Positions 30,388 to 37,503 of a stretch of DNA of 43,262 nt are shown piece by piece. The notes below the pieces were generated by a model. The model saw only the letters and a list, made by a program, of their open reading frames with translations. It had not been told where the DNA came from and did not search any database. The position numbers were made by a program, and so were the translations under genes. Numbering within the stretch: position 1 is the stretch's first letter; each line of letters begins with the position of its first letter. This DNA comes from Phycisphaerae bacterium (GTDB taxonomy: Bacteria > Planctomycetota > Phycisphaerae > Phycisphaerales > SM1A02): NCBI GenBank assembly GCA_002862305.1, contig PKCS01000036.1, positions 1-43,262 of the forward strand, in the 5' to 3' direction.

Positions 30388-30861
30388 TCGGACCCGACGT
30401 CGCATGACGACGGATACTCGAAGGCGCTCCCGGGAGAACCACGAACGACGAGGGCTCACACGAACACATGGCCACCCCACCCCGGGGCGGTCGAAAGGAA
30501 CAGGCCAGCCTGGACAATCAAGACCGACGTGCGACCAGTACGGGTGATGCAGGCCGGCTCGACGAGCCGACACCATGGCCCCCCCACTGGACTGCGCGCA
30601 CCGGGCCGGGTTCGAAGCGATTCGCACCCGACCCCGGATCGCCCCTCCCGGCGGCCCCCCATCGAGGCGGTACACGGGAGCCACGTCGGGCCTTGAGCAC
30701 CAGGATGGCGGGCAGATGAGCGGAATCAGCGTCAGGACCAGTGCCACCGCGATCCACGTGCACCCCGAGGGGGTTCGCACCGGATCGAGTCGTTGCATTG
30801 GACCCGAGGCCCCGATCGCTCGTGAAGCTCGCCCCGTCCGGCCGCAAGGAGCTTCAACACC
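30388..30861 (+). other. 474-nt gene-free region before the RNase E/G gene
   Basis: Every frame on both strands gives only short, low-quality readings of odd composition, so no gene is called. A hairpin CGGCTC-GAC-GAGCCG lies near 30550-30565. The ribosome site AAGGAG stands ten bases before the start at 30862. No terminator for the enzyme I gene and no convincing promoter were found. A long 5' leader for RNase E/G, as in E. coli rne where it controls the enzyme's own mRNA, is possible but is inference. Confidence 0.5.
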
Positions 30862-33800
30862 ATGTCGTCAGTCGATGTCAGCCCGAGTGATTCCCTTGAT
30901 GGATCCGAGAGCACAGGCCGGTCGCCGGAGCAGTCCGGCCCGGTAGGCGGTGCGTCGTCCGGAACGGGCGCCGCCTCGAAGAAGAGTCCAGCGAAGAGCA
31001 CGAAGAAGGCCACCGCCAAGAAGGCGGCGTCCAAGAAGGCGGTCGCCAAGAAGGCCGCCACCAAGAAGGCCGCCACCAAGAAGACCGCCGCCAAGAAGAC
31101 CACCACCAAGAAGGCCGCCACCAAGAAGACCACCACCAAGAAGGCCGCCACCAAGAAGGCCGCCACCAAGAAGACCACCACCAAGAAGGCCGCCACCAAG
31201 AAGGCCGCCACCAAGAAGGCCGCCACCAAGAAGGCCGCCACCAAGAAGGCCGCCACCAAGAAGGCCACCACCAAGAAGGCCGCCACCAAGAAGGCTGCCG
31301 GCAAGGCGGACTCGACGGAGGAAGACGGCAAGAAGAAGGGGTCGAAGAAGGACGGGGCCGGGAAGGGCAAGAAGTCCGAGGGCAAGGACGACTCGAAGGA
31401 CAAGTCCCAGAAGAAAAAGAAGAAGAACAAGTCGAAGAAGTCCTCGGAACGAAGCCGGGGCCGAAGGGGATCGCGCCGGCACGGGGACGCGCTCCCGGAG
31501 GCCGAGAGTGGACCGAGTCCCGAGAACCGGATCATGCTCGTGAACGAGGTCCCGGGCGTCGAGTGCAGGATCGCGCTCCTGGAGAACGGACGGCTCGACG
31601 AGTACTTCGTCGAACGGGCCTCCAGTGCGACGGTCGTCGGCAACATCTACAAGGCCCGGGTCACCAACATCGAACCGGCGATCCAGGCCGCCTTCGTCGA
31701 CTTCGGACTGGGGGAGTCGGGGTTCCTGCACGTCTCCGACCTGCATCCCAAGTACTTCCCGGGGGCGGACCTCAAGGAGCAGGTCGGGAAGAAGATCCCC
31801 CGCAAGCAGCGACCGCCCATCCAGGACGCCCTCAAGAAGGGACAGGAGATCCTGGTGCAGGTGCTGAAGCAGGGCATCGGCACCAAGGGGCCGACGGTCA
31901 CCAGCTACCTCTCCATCCCGGGCAGGTTGATGGTCATGATGCCGGACATGGACCGGGTCGGGGTGAGCCGCAAGGTCGCCGACGACGACGAGCGCAAGCG
32001 GATGCGGGAGATCCTGGATTCGCTGGACCTTCCCGACAACTTCGGATTCATCGTCCGGACCGCGGGCTTCGAGTCCTCGAAGATCGAGCTGAAGCGGGAC
32101 GTCGCCTACCTCAAGCGGCTCTGGGAGCAGATGGACCGGCGGATCCAGAACACCGGGGCGCCCTGCCTGCTCTACGCGGAGAGCGACCTCCTGATCCGGA
32201 CCATCCGCGACGTGCTGGACGCCAGCATCAAGACGATCGTCACCGACCACCCGGCCGCCTTCGAGCGGGCGCGGAGCTTCCTGAAGGTCTCGGGGGTCAC
32301 CGCCGGTCCCGACGTCCGCTACTACGACCGGAACCTGCCGCTCTTCAGCGCCTTCGGGGCGGAGAAGCAGATCGCGAGCCTCCACCTGCGGGAGGTCCCC
32401 CTGGTCTCGGGTGGCGCCCTGGTCATCGAACAGACCGAGGCCCTGGTGGCGATCGACGTCAACAGTGGTCGAAGTCGATCGGCCAAGGATTCGGAGACCA
32501 ACGCCTTCGAGACCAACAAGGAGGCGGTGGACGAGATCTGCCGCCAGCTCCGGCTCCGGGATCTCGGAGGGCTGATCGTCAACGACCTCATCGACATGCG
32601 GCACCAGAAGCACCGCGAGGAGATCGAGCGCCGGATCATGCGCAACCTCAAGCGTGACCGGGCCAAGTCCACCGTGCTGCCCATCAGCGAGTTCGGGATC
32701 GTCGAGATGACCCGGCAGCGAATGCGCCCGAACACCAAGAAGGCGAACTTCGACCTGTGCCCCACCTGCGAGGGGACCGGGGAGGCCCCTCGCCCGGATT
32801 CGGTGGCCGCGGACGCCCTCAGGAGGGCGGGCGTCGTCCTGGAGAACGAACAGGTCCGGCGCATCGAGCTGGTCTGCTCGAGGTCGATCGCGAACATCCT
32901 CAGCGTCGACAAGAAGAAGGAGATCGAGCTCTTCGAGGAACGCAGCAGCCGCAAGATCGACGTGCAGGTCAGCGAGAACATCCTCGAGAAGCGGGTCGAC
33001 ATCTACGCCTACGACGAGGAAGGCGCGGACGTCGAGATCAACAAGCAGGTGCGCCTGAAGGTGCCGAAGATCGCGGACCTTCCGACCGAGATCGACCCCG
33101 ACGACGCCCGGAACGCCAAGAAGTCCGGGAAGCGACGCCGGCGCCGCGGGCGGGGGAAGAACCCGCCGGCCGATGCGACCGCGATCGCGCTCTCGGGTGG
33201 ATTCGACATCGACGACGAGTTCGAGGACGAACTCGACGCCTCGCCGGACGCCACCGGGGATTCCGCCGAGGAATCGTCGGAGGAGGGATCGGAATCGGGC
33301 GGCAGGCGGAAGCGCCGACGAAGGCGGCGCGGTCGGGGCCGGCGTCGCCAGGAGCTCGAGGCGGAACAGCGCGAGCTGGAGTCGAAGTCGATCCGGATCT
33401 ACGCCCTGGCGAAGGAACTCGGCGTCACCTCCAAGGAGATCCTCGAGCGCTGCCGGGAGGCCGAGGGCTTCGACAACCTCAAGAACCACATGTCGTCCCT
33501 CGAGGGCGATCCGTTGCTCGAGGTGCGCGGCTGGTTCCGCCCCGAGGAACCCCCGGTCCCGGAGGAGGAGGCCGGTGACGGGCGCGGGGAGTCCCCGGAC
33601 GACGAGGACGGGAAGCCTCGACGCCGGCGACGCCGGCGACGAGGTCGGCGGGGACGCAATCGCGACCAGGAGGACGGTGGCTCGTCCTCCGAGGAGCGCG
33701 CGGAATCATCCGACGACCCGGGCACCGATGCGTCGGGCCGGACGTCCGACTCCCCCGACGGGGAGGACGGCGAGGATCGTCCACGGAAGCGGAGGCGCCG

Positions 33801-34107
33801 ACGGCGTGGTCGTGGGCGACGACGGTCCGAGGATTCGCCGGAGCCGGAGTCCGGATCGAACGACGAGGCCGGGACCGACCGGGAGTCCCCCGACCGGGGC
33901 GAGAAGCGACCCGGGGCCGAGGACCCCCCCCGCGAATCGGGATCCGCCGGGAAGGACGACGGAGAATCGGGGTCGACTCCGGAGACCGGCTCGAACTCGA
34001 GCTCGGGGGAACCAGCGCCGGAGGCCCCCGCGAAGCCGAAGCGACGATCACTCTACGGCGGTCGAATGCGCCGGGTCTCGAACACCGGACGCCCCGCGGA
34101 GGACTGA
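30862..34107 (+). CDS. rne: RNase E/G family endoribonuclease with repeat tail and IF2-N-like domain
   Basis: A 1081-residue RNA-processing enzyme. Residues 1-220 are low complexity: 19 five-residue units such as AATKK at 50-144, then a lysine-rich stretch, like histone H1. The catalytic core starts near 224. An S1 domain (about 254-356) has GNIYKARVTNIEPAIQAAFVDFG; the DNase I-like site has Asp532, Asn534 (AIDVNS) and Asp575 (VNDLIDM), and the Zn-link has Cys633-Cys636. The spacings 43 and 101 equal those of E. coli RNase E (D303, D346, C404). Near 842-895, IRIYALAKELGVTSKEIL matches an IF-2 N-terminal domain. The rest is Arg-rich and acidic, possibly for RNA or partner binding. Start: ATG with AAGGAG ten bases ahead. 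Confidence 0.93.
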   Translation: MSSVDVSPSDSLDGSESTGRSPEQSGPVGGASSGTGAASKKSPAKSTKKATAKKAASKKAVAKKAATKKAATKKTAAKKTTTKKAATKKTTTKKAATKKAATKKTTTKKAATKKAATKKAATKKAATKKAATKKATTKKAATKKAAGKADSTEEDGKKKGSKKDGAGKGKKSEGKDDSKDKSQKKKKKNKSKKSSERSRGRRGSRRHGDALPEAESGPSPENRIMLVNEVPGVECRIALLENGRLDEYFVERASSATVVGNIYKARVTNIEPAIQAAFVDFGLGESGFLHVSDLHPKYFPGADLKEQVGKKIPRKQRPPIQDALKKGQEILVQVLKQGIGTKGPTVTSYLSIPGRLMVMMPDMDRVGVSRKVADDDERKRMREILDSLDLPDNFGFIVRTAGFESSKIELKRDVAYLKRLWEQMDRRIQNTGAPCLLYAESDLLIRTIRDVLDASIKTIVTDHPAAFERARSFLKVSGVTAGPDVRYYDRNLPLFSAFGAEKQIASLHLREVPLVSGGALVIEQTEALVAIDVNSGRSRSAKDSETNAFETNKEAVDEICRQLRLRDLGGLIVNDLIDMRHQKHREEIERRIMRNLKRDRAKSTVLPISEFGIVEMTRQRMRPNTKKANFDLCPTCEGTGEAPRPDSVAADALRRAGVVLENEQVRRIELVCSRSIANILSVDKKKEIELFEERSSRKIDVQVSENILEKRVDIYAYDEEGADVEINKQVRLKVPKIADLPTEIDPDDARNAKKSGKRRRRRGRGKNPPADATAIALSGGFDIDDEFEDELDASPDATGDSAEESSEEGSESGGRRKRRRRRRGRGRRRQELEAEQRELESKSIRIYALAKELGVTSKEILERCREAEGFDNLKNHMSSLEGDPLLEVRGWFRPEEPPVPEEEAGDGRGESPDDEDGKPRRRRRRRRGRRGRNRDQEDGGSSSEERAESSDDPGTDASGRTSDSPDGEDGEDRPRKRRRRRRGRGRRRSEDSPEPESGSNDEAGTDRESPDRGEKRPGAEDPPRESGSAGKDDGESGSTPETGSNSSSGEPAPEAPAKPKRRSLYGGRMRRVSNTGRPAED
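31009..31293 (+). repeat. 15-bp tandem repeat inside the RNase E/G gene
   Basis: Nineteen uninterrupted units of 15 bases, close to GCCGCCACCAAGAAG, encode five residues each (AATKK, TTTKK, ATTKK and variants). Units are nearly identical at the DNA level, including the codons, which suggests recent slippage; copy number may vary between strains. Confidence 0.92.
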
Positions 34108-34144
34108 TCGAGGACATGTCCCGGACCAGCACGGAACCAAGCAC

Positions 34145-35350
34145 ATGATCCCCTATGAAGGATCCAATCCCGTGGAACGAACCGGTCGGGTGATCCTCCT
34201 GGGATCGACCGGCTCGATCGGGGTCAACACCCTCGAGGTGATCCGTCACCTGAGGGACGAGTGCGGGATCGACTACGAGGTGATCGGGCTGGCGGCGGGA
34301 CGGAACACCGAACTGCTCGCCCACCAGGCGAGGGAGTTCGGGGTCGGTCACCTGGCGATCTCCGAACCGGACGTGGCCTTCGATCCGGGAGGATCGGCCA
34401 CGCTGCTCCGTGGCCCGCAGGCGGCGACCGAGCTGGTGGAGTCCATCGCCCGTCCCGGGGACCTGGTGGTGGGCGCGATCGTGGGTTCATCGGGGGTCGA
34501 GCCGTCGCTCGCGGCATTGCGCCATGACTGCGACCTGGCCCTCGCCAACAAGGAGGCGCTGGTGGCGGCGGGCAGGCTGGTCATGGACGCGGCCGGGGCC
34601 TCCCGGGGCCGCATCATCCCCATCGACAGCGAACACAGCGCGATCTTCCAGTGCCTGCATGCGGGAGGGGGCCGGGAGGAGGTCGCGAAGCTGATCCTGA
34701 CCGCCAGCGGGGGTCCGTTCCGGACGTGGGACACCGAGCGGATGCATCGAGCGACCGTGGAGGAGGCCCTCAACCACCCCACGTGGTCGATGGGACCCAA
34801 GGTCACCGTGGACTCCGCATCCCTCATGAACAAGGCCCTCGAGCTCATCGAGGCCCACTGGCTCTTCGGGATGCCCGCGGATCGACTCGAGGCGGTGATC
34901 CACCCCCAGTCGATCGTGCACTCGTTCGTCGAGTTCCGGGATCATTCGGTCATCGCCCAGCTGTCCCCGCCGGACATGAAGCTGCCGATCCAGTACGCCC
35001 TGACCTGGCCGGACCGGACCCCGGGCTGCGCACGCCGGACCGACTTCGGGTCCTTCGGCGACCTCGAGTTCCAGCCGGTCGACCACGATCGATTCCCCGC
35101 CATCCGGACCGCCCGGGAGGTGATCGCGGCCCCGGATTCGGCGGGCGCGGTGTTCAACGCGGCGAACGAGGTCGCGGTGGAGGCGTTCCTCGACCGGCGA
35201 ATCCCCTTCGGGATGATCCTCGACTCCATCCGGACCACCCTCGAGCGATGCCCGGCGCGGGAGGTGGCCAGCCTCGAGGAGGTCTGGGCCGCCGACCGGG
35301 AGGCCCGGAAGGTCGCCGGCGAATGTCTGGCGAACGCCGCGGGAACCTGA
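34145..35350 (+). CDS. dxr: 1-deoxy-D-xylulose 5-phosphate reductoisomerase
   Basis: A 401-residue NADPH enzyme of the MEP isoprenoid pathway (DXP to MEP). NADPH-binding LLGSTGSIGVNTLEVI, then ANKEALVAAG, PIDSEHSAIFQCL (metal-binding Asp and Glu), TASGGPF, and the flexible-loop and substrate block NHPTWSMGPKVTVDSASLMN with ALELIEAHWLF. All key residues appear present and length is normal. The ATG at 34145 has GGAA upstream; it is 37 bases after the RNase E/G stop. rseP follows after 83 bases, as in many bacteria; the usual uppS and cdsA are not between or before them here. Confidence 0.96.
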   Translation: MIPYEGSNPVERTGRVILLGSTGSIGVNTLEVIRHLRDECGIDYEVIGLAAGRNTELLAHQAREFGVGHLAISEPDVAFDPGGSATLLRGPQAATELVESIARPGDLVVGAIVGSSGVEPSLAALRHDCDLALANKEALVAAGRLVMDAAGASRGRIIPIDSEHSAIFQCLHAGGGREEVAKLILTASGGPFRTWDTERMHRATVEEALNHPTWSMGPKVTVDSASLMNKALELIEAHWLFGMPADRLEAVIHPQSIVHSFVEFRDHSVIAQLSPPDMKLPIQYALTWPDRTPGCARRTDFGSFGDLEFQPVDHDRFPAIRTAREVIAAPDSAGAVFNAANEVAVEAFLDRRIPFGMILDSIRTTLERCPAREVASLEEVWAADREARKVAGECLANAAGT

Positions 35351-35433: not shown

Positions 35434-37503
35434 ATGGGCATCCTCTCGACCGGCACCAACATCCTCCTGATCATCCTGGGCTTCGGGATCCTGGTGTTCG
35501 TCCACGAACTCGGGCACTTCCTGGCCGCCAAGTGGGCGCGCATCCGGACCGAAGGCTTCTGCATCGGGTTCGGGACCGCGATCTGCTCCTACCGGATGGG
35601 CGTCGGCTTCCGGCTGGGGAGCACCGAGGCCGCGACCGTCGCCCGACTCGGCAAGCCCTCGATCAAGTGCACCACGGAGGAACTCCGGGAGGCCGGGGTG
35701 GGCGAGACCGAATACGCGCTCCGGCTGATCCCCCTCGGCGGGTACGTCAAGATGCTGGGACAGGACGACATGGATCCCGGGGCCCGCAGCAAGGACCCGC
35801 GGAGCTTCAACGCCGTCCCGATCGGGAAGCGGATGGTGGTGATCAGCGCGGGGATCGTCATGAACGTCATCACCGCGGTGGTGCTGTTCATCGCGGCGTT
35901 CCTGAGCGGCGTGCAGTTCAACGCACCGATCGTCGGGGACGTCTTCCCCGGGGAACCCGCCGCCGAGGCGGGGCTCCGGCCGGGCGACCGGATCGTGTCG
36001 GTCGACCAGGCCCCGATCAGGACGTTCTCCGACGTGGTGATCGCGGTGGCCTTCGCGGACCCCGGCGCGGAGGTCGCCTTCGAGGTCGAGTCGCCCGGGG
36101 GCGGCGAACCTCGGACGATCAGCATGCTTCCCGAGATGAATCCCCGGACCGGCCTGCTGGGCGTGGGACTGAGCCCGGCGTCGAGCACCACGCTCCTGGT
36201 CTCCGAAGGCGCCGCGGACCTCATGACCCCGAGCCTCGAGGAGGCGGGGTTGACCGCTTCCGGCATCGGTTCCGGCTGGTCGATCTCCCGCGTGGGGGAC
36301 GAGGCGGTCGGGACCTGGAGCGCCTGGGCGGAACGGATGGATTCCAGCGACGGCAGGCCGCTGCCGGTGACCTGGACCTCGCCGACGGGAACCACCACGA
36401 CGATCCCCATGGCCGGGAGTCCGCAGCTCGAGATCATGCGCTACCCCACCCCGCTGCCCGAGGGGATCCCCAACTGGGAGGCGGGACTGATCGGGTTGTG
36501 CCCGCTGGTGAACATCGAGATGGTCCTCCCCGACAGTCCGAACCGTTCCTCCCTGCAGGCGGGGGACGTGATCCTGAAGCTGGACTCGAAGTCGGGTCCG
36601 AACAGCGTGGACTTCCGAAGGATCCTCGCCGAGAACCCCGGTCGCACGCTCCAGGCCACGGTGCTGAGGGACGGCCAACGGGTGCAGACCACCCTGAGCG
36701 TGAACCAGAACGGACAGATCGGCGTGTACCCCGGCAACGCCCTCCAGCTGCCGATGATCTCCCGGACCCTGTCCGAGGTCGGGGGCGAGTCGCCCGATTC
36801 GAAGCCCCGGCCGACCCCGGTGGCGGGCCTGGACCTGCTTCCGTTGACCACCATCACCAGGGTCGGTGAGACCGAGATCAGCGACTGGACCACGCTCCGG
36901 GCGGCGCTGCAGGCGGTGGCGCGCGACGGTACCGCCGCCCCGACCGTCGAGATGGAGATCGAGAACCCCACCCGCAACCGGGAACGACAGACGGTGAAGC
37001 TGGTGCTCACCGAGGAACAGGTGAAGGCCCTCGACGAGCTGGGGTGGAACCCCCCGCTGCCCTTCAGCTTCTTCGAGCCCCTCTGGACCACCCTCTCCGC
37101 GAACGGCAACCCGCTGGTCGCGGTGCAGATGGGATTCGAGGAGACCCGAAAGACCATCATCCTCACCTACCTCACGATGTACCGGCTGGTGCAGGGGACG
37201 GTGGGCGTCGAGCAGCTGCGCGGGCCGGTGGGGATCGTCCACCTCGGCAGCCAGGTCGCGGACCGGGGAGTCATGTACCTGGTGTTCTTCCTCGCGATGA
37301 TCAGCGTGAACCTCGCGGTGCTCAACTTCCTCCCCCTGCCGATCCTCGACGGAGGGCACTTCCTCTACCTGGTGTACGAGAAGATCAAGGGCAGCCCCCC
37401 CTCGGTCGGCTTCCAGAACGGGGCGGCACTGCTCGGGCTCCTGCTGCTGGGCACGCTCTTCGTGGTGATCTCCTACTTCGACGTCATGCGGCTGCTGGGA
37501 TGA
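35434..37503 (+). CDS. rseP: RseP-family site-2 zinc metalloprotease with several PDZ domains
   Basis: A 689-residue intramembrane protease, far longer than the about 450 usual. The zinc site is His24-Glu25-x-x-His28 in VFVHELGHFLAAKW, with the third ligand Asp639 in NFLPLPILDGGHF. Between them are the second membrane segment (VIVMNVITAVVLFIAAFL-like region near 140-160) and PDZ-like domains: near 167 (EAGLRPGDRIVSVDQ), near 363 (SLQAGDVILKLD), and a weaker one near 469 (ITRVGETEISDW). Family role: cleavage of anti-sigma factors and signal peptides in the membrane, so it could act on the anti-sigma factor at 22540, which is only inference. Its TGA overlaps the next ATG. Confidence 0.93.
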   Translation: MGILSTGTNILLIILGFGILVFVHELGHFLAAKWARIRTEGFCIGFGTAICSYRMGVGFRLGSTEAATVARLGKPSIKCTTEELREAGVGETEYALRLIPLGGYVKMLGQDDMDPGARSKDPRSFNAVPIGKRMVVISAGIVMNVITAVVLFIAAFLSGVQFNAPIVGDVFPGEPAAEAGLRPGDRIVSVDQAPIRTFSDVVIAVAFADPGAEVAFEVESPGGGEPRTISMLPEMNPRTGLLGVGLSPASSTTLLVSEGAADLMTPSLEEAGLTASGIGSGWSISRVGDEAVGTWSAWAERMDSSDGRPLPVTWTSPTGTTTTIPMAGSPQLEIMRYPTPLPEGIPNWEAGLIGLCPLVNIEMVLPDSPNRSSLQAGDVILKLDSKSGPNSVDFRRILAENPGRTLQATVLRDGQRVQTTLSVNQNGQIGVYPGNALQLPMISRTLSEVGGESPDSKPRPTPVAGLDLLPLTTITRVGETEISDWTTLRAALQAVARDGTAAPTVEMEIENPTRNRERQTVKLVLTEEQVKALDELGWNPPLPFSFFEPLWTTLSANGNPLVAVQMGFEETRKTIILTYLTMYRLVQGTVGVEQLRGPVGIVHLGSQVADRGVMYLVFFLAMISVNLAVLNFLPLPILDGGHFLYLVYEKIKGSPPSVGFQNGAALLGLLLLGTLFVVISYFDVMRLLG

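Follow-up and report, generated by a model that had tools for sequence, protein, structure and literature searches.

A predicted scaffold-type RNase E of the Planctomycetota with an IF2 N1-like module in its charged tail

The closest described counterparts of the protein analyzed here are other RNase E enzymes. RNase E of Caulobacter and Sinorhizobium, the scaffold of BR-bodies, is built like the planctomycete protein, with a core followed by a charge-patched tail, which in those bacteria is disordered, and the charge-block pattern has been linked to phase separation of the C. crescentus enzyme (PMC12691583). The available part of their description makes no mention of IF2_N, whereas the planctomycete tail carries this domain. 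For E. coli RNase E, the PNPase site has been placed at residues 1021-1061 of its own tail, and in the same 2011 review a table gives lengths of 509-588 aa for RNase E/G of Planctomycetes and marks them as being without degradosome potential (PMC3071783). A precedent for IF2_N on RNase E was found in Tsukamurella tyrosinosolvens (WP_068742543.1, reached via tblastn of plasmid records; residues 20-66, 32.4 bits, above the gathering score), whose RefSeq name is 'translation initiation factor IF-2 N-terminal domain-containing protein'. Both proteins share an RNase E/G core, Arg-rich charged extensions and a single IF2_N, which precedes the core in Tsukamurella whereas it follows the core in the planctomycete; no IF2_N match was obtained in RNase E of Nonomuraea, from the same phylum as Tsukamurella. 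From position and patchiness, the two fusions are likely, if unproved, to be independent. Open-licence literature yielded nothing on RNase E joined with an IF2 N-terminal domain in one protein nor on RNase E in Phycisphaer- taxa, and no RNase E with a histone-like head appeared among the matches listed from these papers; IF2 and RNase E are handled as separate proteins in the available part of PMC11838494. An earlier note, made from the letters of this DNA, had asked whether the architecture could be an already described variant: the Tsukamurella protein answers to this with IF2_N at the other end, whereas a published account was not found in that literature. What is known already is thus IF2_N on RNase E in Actinomycetota, at the N-terminus, and the case presented here is its tail position in a predicted scaffold-type RNase E of Planctomycetota.

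The window, i.e., the whole stretch of 43,262 nucleotides analyzed, corresponds to contig C15 of the host genome (2.67 Mb, 103 contigs, 96.57% complete). On its forward strand, to which all features given below belong, positions 30862-34107 encode an RNase E/G of 1081 aa (ATG at 30862, stop at 34107), with AAGGAG at 30846-30851, ten bases ahead of the ATG; this gene gave the sole match to PF10150 (RNase_E_G) in the genome. The protein displayed an S1 domain (31636-31869, residues 259-336, above the Pfam cut-off), the catalytic domain (31912-32724, residues 351-621, with RTAG at 399, D532, and D575), and the zinc-link CPTC motif (C633) together with the RNase_E_G_Thio small domain (32758-33003, residues 633-714, above the Pfam cut-off). 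Predicted catalytic aspartates D532 and D575 and zinc-link C633 were spaced by +43 and +101, and we take them to correspond to D303, D346, and C404 of E. coli RNase E; both this core spacing and the coordinates of the gene had been read correctly in the earlier note. The score for PF10150 was 305.5 bits (cut-off 25.5) and the NCBIfam subfamily model TIGR00757 was passed with 456.5 bits (cut-off 325.95), whereas the cut-offs of the equivalogs for ribonuclease E (NF008074, 364.5 bits vs. 908) and ribonuclease G (NF008689, 343.9 bits vs. 594) were missed; "RNase E" is used here for the long build of the protein and not for the NF008074 equivalog. By TIGR00757 and PF10150 the protein is a member of RNase E/G, and endoribonuclease activity is predicted for it. 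Its best solved relative was E. coli RNase E (2bx2, E 4.7e-98), to which the catalytic half aligns (residues 223-696); since the match ends at residue 696, the planctomycete tail lies outside this alignment. Upstream neighbors matched Hsp70 and a PEP-utilising enzyme in Pfam, and on the same strand, 3' of RNase E, DXP reductoisomerase (33173-35350) is followed by an M50 protease with PDZ domains (35434-37503). A PNPase gene was found in the genome search.

Behind the core, where the earlier note had read a domain resembling the N-terminus of IF-2, a profile search with IF2_N (PF04760) gave 28.6 bits against a gathering score of 25.3 at residues 843-882 (33388-33507), within a module resembling IF2 N1 at 33385-33537 (residues ~842-892). 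The lack of a match above threshold, which the earlier note had named as refuting its reading, did not occur. The same module reached 33.0 bits in the whole-genome search, and in the sibling P0002 IF2_N scored 25.2 bits, slightly below the gathering score. A sequence search of PDB with the 80-residue module region ranked IF2 first, weakly (E 0.054). The structure model of the module, obtained from two sequences, was poor (pLDDT 69.8, helices only), and Foldseek found no confident PDB match for it (best E 7.5). A chance match was rejected because the module is present in 19 of 23 relatives, and we regard the predicted module as genuine.

These relatives belong to a set of 41 genomes, 40 of which presented one RNase E/G match each, the remaining genome (G001) being dropped for lack of a match. 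The 40 comprised 24 genomes of the window's family, 23 of them with readable tails (G017, cut by a contig end, was left out of the IF2_N count), and 16 genomes representing five further families of the order. When Pfam was combined with a profile made from the RNase E modules themselves, the module was found in the RNase E tail of 19 of the 23 readable genomes, spanning 16 genera (G000, G002, G003, G004, G006, G007, G008, G010, G011, G012, G014, G015, G016, G018, G019, G021, G022, G023, and G024). With Pfam alone, 15 of the 19 modules were above the cut-off (one of these, G007, only together with its neighbors in the frame) and 4 below; the weak matches of G008, G011, G015, and G018 were counted because they scored 32 to 52 bits with the family profile, for which 12 of the 19 positives had been used. 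The module of G015, cut by a contig end, was counted as present (32.0 bits) and left out of the domain tree. At E ≤1, the Pfam search for IF2_N gave matches in each of the 14 control genomes, which included archaea, and in 10 genomes the match was above the cut-off. The contig search for related loci returned a single locus (L031), which lies on the same contig as that of G003 (NHEC01000017.1; same genus) and is not independent.

According to the module profile, the module was absent from all 16 genomes of the five other families of the order. Within the window's family it was absent in G013, and G005, G009, and G020 presented at most remnant-like stretches in their tails, unrecognized as IF2_N by Pfam and scoring 2.2, 4.5, and -1.5 bits or less, respectively, with the module profile. 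In the tree of RNase E cores, a branch with SH-aLRT 98 separates the family from the other sequences; within the family, G013 diverges first (SH-aLRT 81), and G005, G009, and G020 group together (SH-aLRT 92). The simplest history, still unproven, would be one gain after the divergence of G013 followed by decay in one clade. The module is dispensable, since it is unrecognizable in these three genomes and absent in G013. Farther away, the module was not found in any of 40 additional long-frame RNase E proteins taken from other families within the phylum; this is a weak test because, among 33 of those 40, tails longer than 100 residues occurred in only five, all from family f28. In a sample of 147 genomes of the phylum, for which listings of IF2_N and RNase E matches were compared by eye, contig by contig, the only IF2_N in an RNase E frame among the matches listed (to E ~2.6e-7) was that of the window itself, and weaker modules may escape at this level.

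In order to place the module among IF2_N domains, the two copies (N1 and N2) were taken from the IF2 proteins of 12 genomes. All 18 modules tested scored better with N1 than with N2, the medians being 66.5 to 129 and 18 to 36.5, respectively, most of them retain the N1-type NHMS stretch, and N2 separated at 100/98 on the domain tree; an origin from N2 was thus rejected. The tree rested on 61 columns and left 19 of its 40 inner forks open, and a branch separating the modules from everything else was present in 0% of 200 bootstrap trees, one separating N1 in 57%, so that single and multiple captures are indistinguishable on this tree. In the two closest pairs of genomes the module was better conserved than the tail behind it: 83% identity and dN/dS 0.09 vs. 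40% and 0.28 in G000/G003, and 89% and 0.07 vs. 48% and 0.15 in G002/G004. Constraint was laxer in G000/G010 (63% identity, dN/dS 0.34) and G008/G011 (63%, 0.27), and in G023/G024 the module (54%, 0.53) was conserved no better than the preceding tail segment (57%); several dS values of these pair comparisons were high or saturated.

The tail in which the module is embedded has ~370-380 residues in the window, 45% of them charged, with Arg-rich and acidic blocks. Four Arg/Lys runs of at least 5 residues (residues 757-762, 815-823, 920-927, and 975-982) lie between acidic stretches at 33130-33807. Twelve alternating charge blocks were counted in this tail (z 7.8 vs. shuffles), and all 40 tails examined in the order were blockier in charge than their shuffles (z 3.9 to 10.5; two tails cut). 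The number of alternating blocks per tail varied from 2 to 17, with only 2 in two genomes of family f4 (G027 and G035) and 3 in G007. Across the 40 RNase E genes of the order, uncut charged tails measured 156 to 483 residues and uncut open frames 684-1247 aa; because four relatives of the same class have only 508-596 aa, this order seems to have acquired the scaffold tail on its own. A long charged tail of this kind qualifies the protein as a scaffold-type RNase E, with predicted partner binding, and its alternating charge patches are of the BR-body type, for which condensate formation is possible.

Two short motifs were found in the tail. The first, PADATAIALSGGF (33166-33204, residues 769-781), has an ADA-type core (ADATAIAL in the window) that recurred in 21 of 24 tails of the window's family and, with the loosest pattern, in one match in the 16 genomes outside it; no Pfam family was found at this place. 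The second, KRRSLYGGRMRRV (34039-34077, residues 1060-1072), lies near the C-terminus and contains R-x-L-Y, whose conservation extends to three of the order's families. After G015 and G017 were left out, R-x-L-Y occurred in the last 60 residues of all 22 complete tails of the window's family, 15 of them with R-x-L-Y-G, as compared with a mean of 0.069 and a maximum of 2 of 22 in shuffles. Families f2 and f4 had it as well (8 of 8 tails), families f3, f5, and f6 did not (0 of 8); L-Y alone gave the same counts (shuffle mean 0.57, maximum 3). The KRRSLYGGRMRRV region is a candidate partner-docking site.

All these features taken together led us to favor, with a probability of about 0.5, a scaffold-type RNase E whose tail would organize a degradosome and whose IF2-derived module would probably dock ribosomes. 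The tail would hold an RNA-degradation assembly, possibly a condensate similar to BR-bodies, and the module would link this assembly to the 30S subunit or else to the binding target of IF2 N1; in this way, cleavage of mRNA or rRNA precursors would take place on ribosomes or in their vicinity. A partner, with PNPase as one candidate, would dock at the C-terminal motif. According to PMC4611024, the N-terminal region of IF2 strongly anchors the factor to 30S and is dispensable for its basic functions, and because of this dispensability the binding target of N1 is uncertain. The coupling to ribosomes suggested by the earlier note is a reasonable inference, as the IF2_N call was correct, the module is kept in most of the family and the IF2 N-region anchors 30S.

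The alternative that survives best, possible but less probable, is a condensate scaffold without ribosome docking, in which IF2_N would be a small folded knob binding another degradosome member or itself. The charge blocks fit this alternative, as they are found in the 40 tails of the order with module or without it, and so does R-x-L-Y, which reaches 8/8 in f2 and f4, families lacking the module; the retention of NHMS by most modules and the proximity of 18 of 18 to N1 would be odd if IF2-type binding had been dropped.

At the other end of the protein, a basic head rich in Lys, Ala, and Thr extends over residues 38-200 (30973-31461; 163 aa with 63 Lys, 37 Ala, and 26 Thr; net charge +55). Its repeats come from a 15-bp tandem array at 30999-31299 (CACCAAGAAGGCCGC, 20.1 copies, 89% matches), which encodes Lys-Lys pentamers of the TKKAA-like type. 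The earlier note had described this head as a repeat region of about 220 residues resembling histone H1; its basic, repetitive nature stands, whereas its length has to be reduced to an array of ~100 residues inside a basic region of ~163. As to the likeness, the Lys-rich pentamers are there, and the match to Pfam HC2 (PF07382, cut-off 40) is borderline, with 37.3 bits in hmmscan and 41.4 in the genome search; NCBIfam histone H1-like models gave 41.0 bits against 80 and 12.9 against 135. Chlamydial Hc2 (HctB), a protein of variable length, has similar Lys-rich pentamers and reportedly surpasses Hc1 in the strength of its RNA binding (PMC2848022); in contrast to Hc2, the planctomycete repeats form part of an RNase and stem from a DNA repeat of 15 bp. 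We consider the resemblance compositional and borderline, with homology unproven. Given the borderline score and the distribution of the head, we rejected the view that its homology to Hc2 is demonstrated: with a criterion of Lys fraction ≥0.35 in 60 residues, a Lys-rich head was found in only 6 of 24 genomes of the window's family (G000, G002, G003, G004, G006, and G010), the others having heads of other types (6) or heads of <60 residues as cut here (12). The domain order of the window is therefore that of most of the family for the tail module (19/23) and of a minority for the Lys-rich head (6/24).

Weakly similar repeats appeared in the sigma factors HrdB/SigA (PDB search, E 0.0016 to 0.21), so that this Lys-rich repeat type is recurrent. 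In family f28 of the same phylum (L136, L137, L138, L139, L141, and L148), the C-terminal end of RNase E consists of Lys/Ala/Pro-rich repeats, and histone-like low-complexity ends thus recur at either terminus of RNase E. A separate observation concerns family f55, in which the RNase_E_G profile matched as two separate pieces of one frame in four genomes (L169, L170, and L174 are three of the four); this suggests an insertion in the catalytic domain.

Where the family has it, the head would most likely raise the affinity for RNA or DNA in a nonspecific way. That it acts as a functional histone-like tether placing RNase E on DNA or polyphosphate is doubtful: its Lys pentamers are Hc2-like and, according to PMC12345225, polyphosphate is bound by Lys-rich regions of RNase R and YihI, whereas the head is restricted to 6 of the 24 genomes, its repeat type recurs with weak similarity in HrdB/SigA and Hc2 binds RNA as well (PMC2848022). 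The coupling to the nucleoid also put forward by the earlier note is weak, the head being the product of a DNA repeat, present in a minority of genomes and only borderline Hc2-like, and Hc2 itself being reported to bind RNA with greater strength than Hc1. Still more improbable is that head and tail additions are mostly neutral, the repeats having grown by slippage and the inserted domain decaying, neither of them with a specific role. In favor of this stand the 15-bp array, the unrecognizable module in G005, G009, and G020, its absence in G013, and the dN/dS of 0.53 in G023/G024; against it stand retention of the module in 19 of 23 genomes and 16 genera, low dN/dS in the two closest pairs, and R-x-L-Y in 22/22 complete tails of the family (shuffles: mean 0.069, maximum 2).

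Returning to the ribosome-docking scaffold, we counted in its favor a module that is kept, N1-like and constrained in the closest pairs, the charge blocks, the PNPase gene and the 30S anchoring of IF2; counted against it were the module being unrecognizable or absent in some genomes, the dispensability of the IF2 N-region, the laxer pairs, the domain tree without a clade of modules, the poor structure model, the weak first rank of IF2 in PDB and the few-block tails of G027, G035, and G007. A bolder version, which we hold to be unlikely, would make the RNase E module a decoy of the 30S anchor of IF2, such that the degradosome competes with IF2 or replaces it and decides whether an mRNA starts translation or is destroyed; taken with the actinobacterial case at the opposite end of the protein, IF2-N would then be a recurrent switch between translation and decay.

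Judged from these comparisons, most of one family has added an IF2 N1-like domain to RNase E, in a phylum once tabulated with the bare enzyme (PMC3071783, table). The conserved C-terminal motif points to a candidate partner site. Were RNase E indeed docked on ribosomes by the module, this would offer a genetic handle on the link between translation initiation and RNA decay in bacteria.
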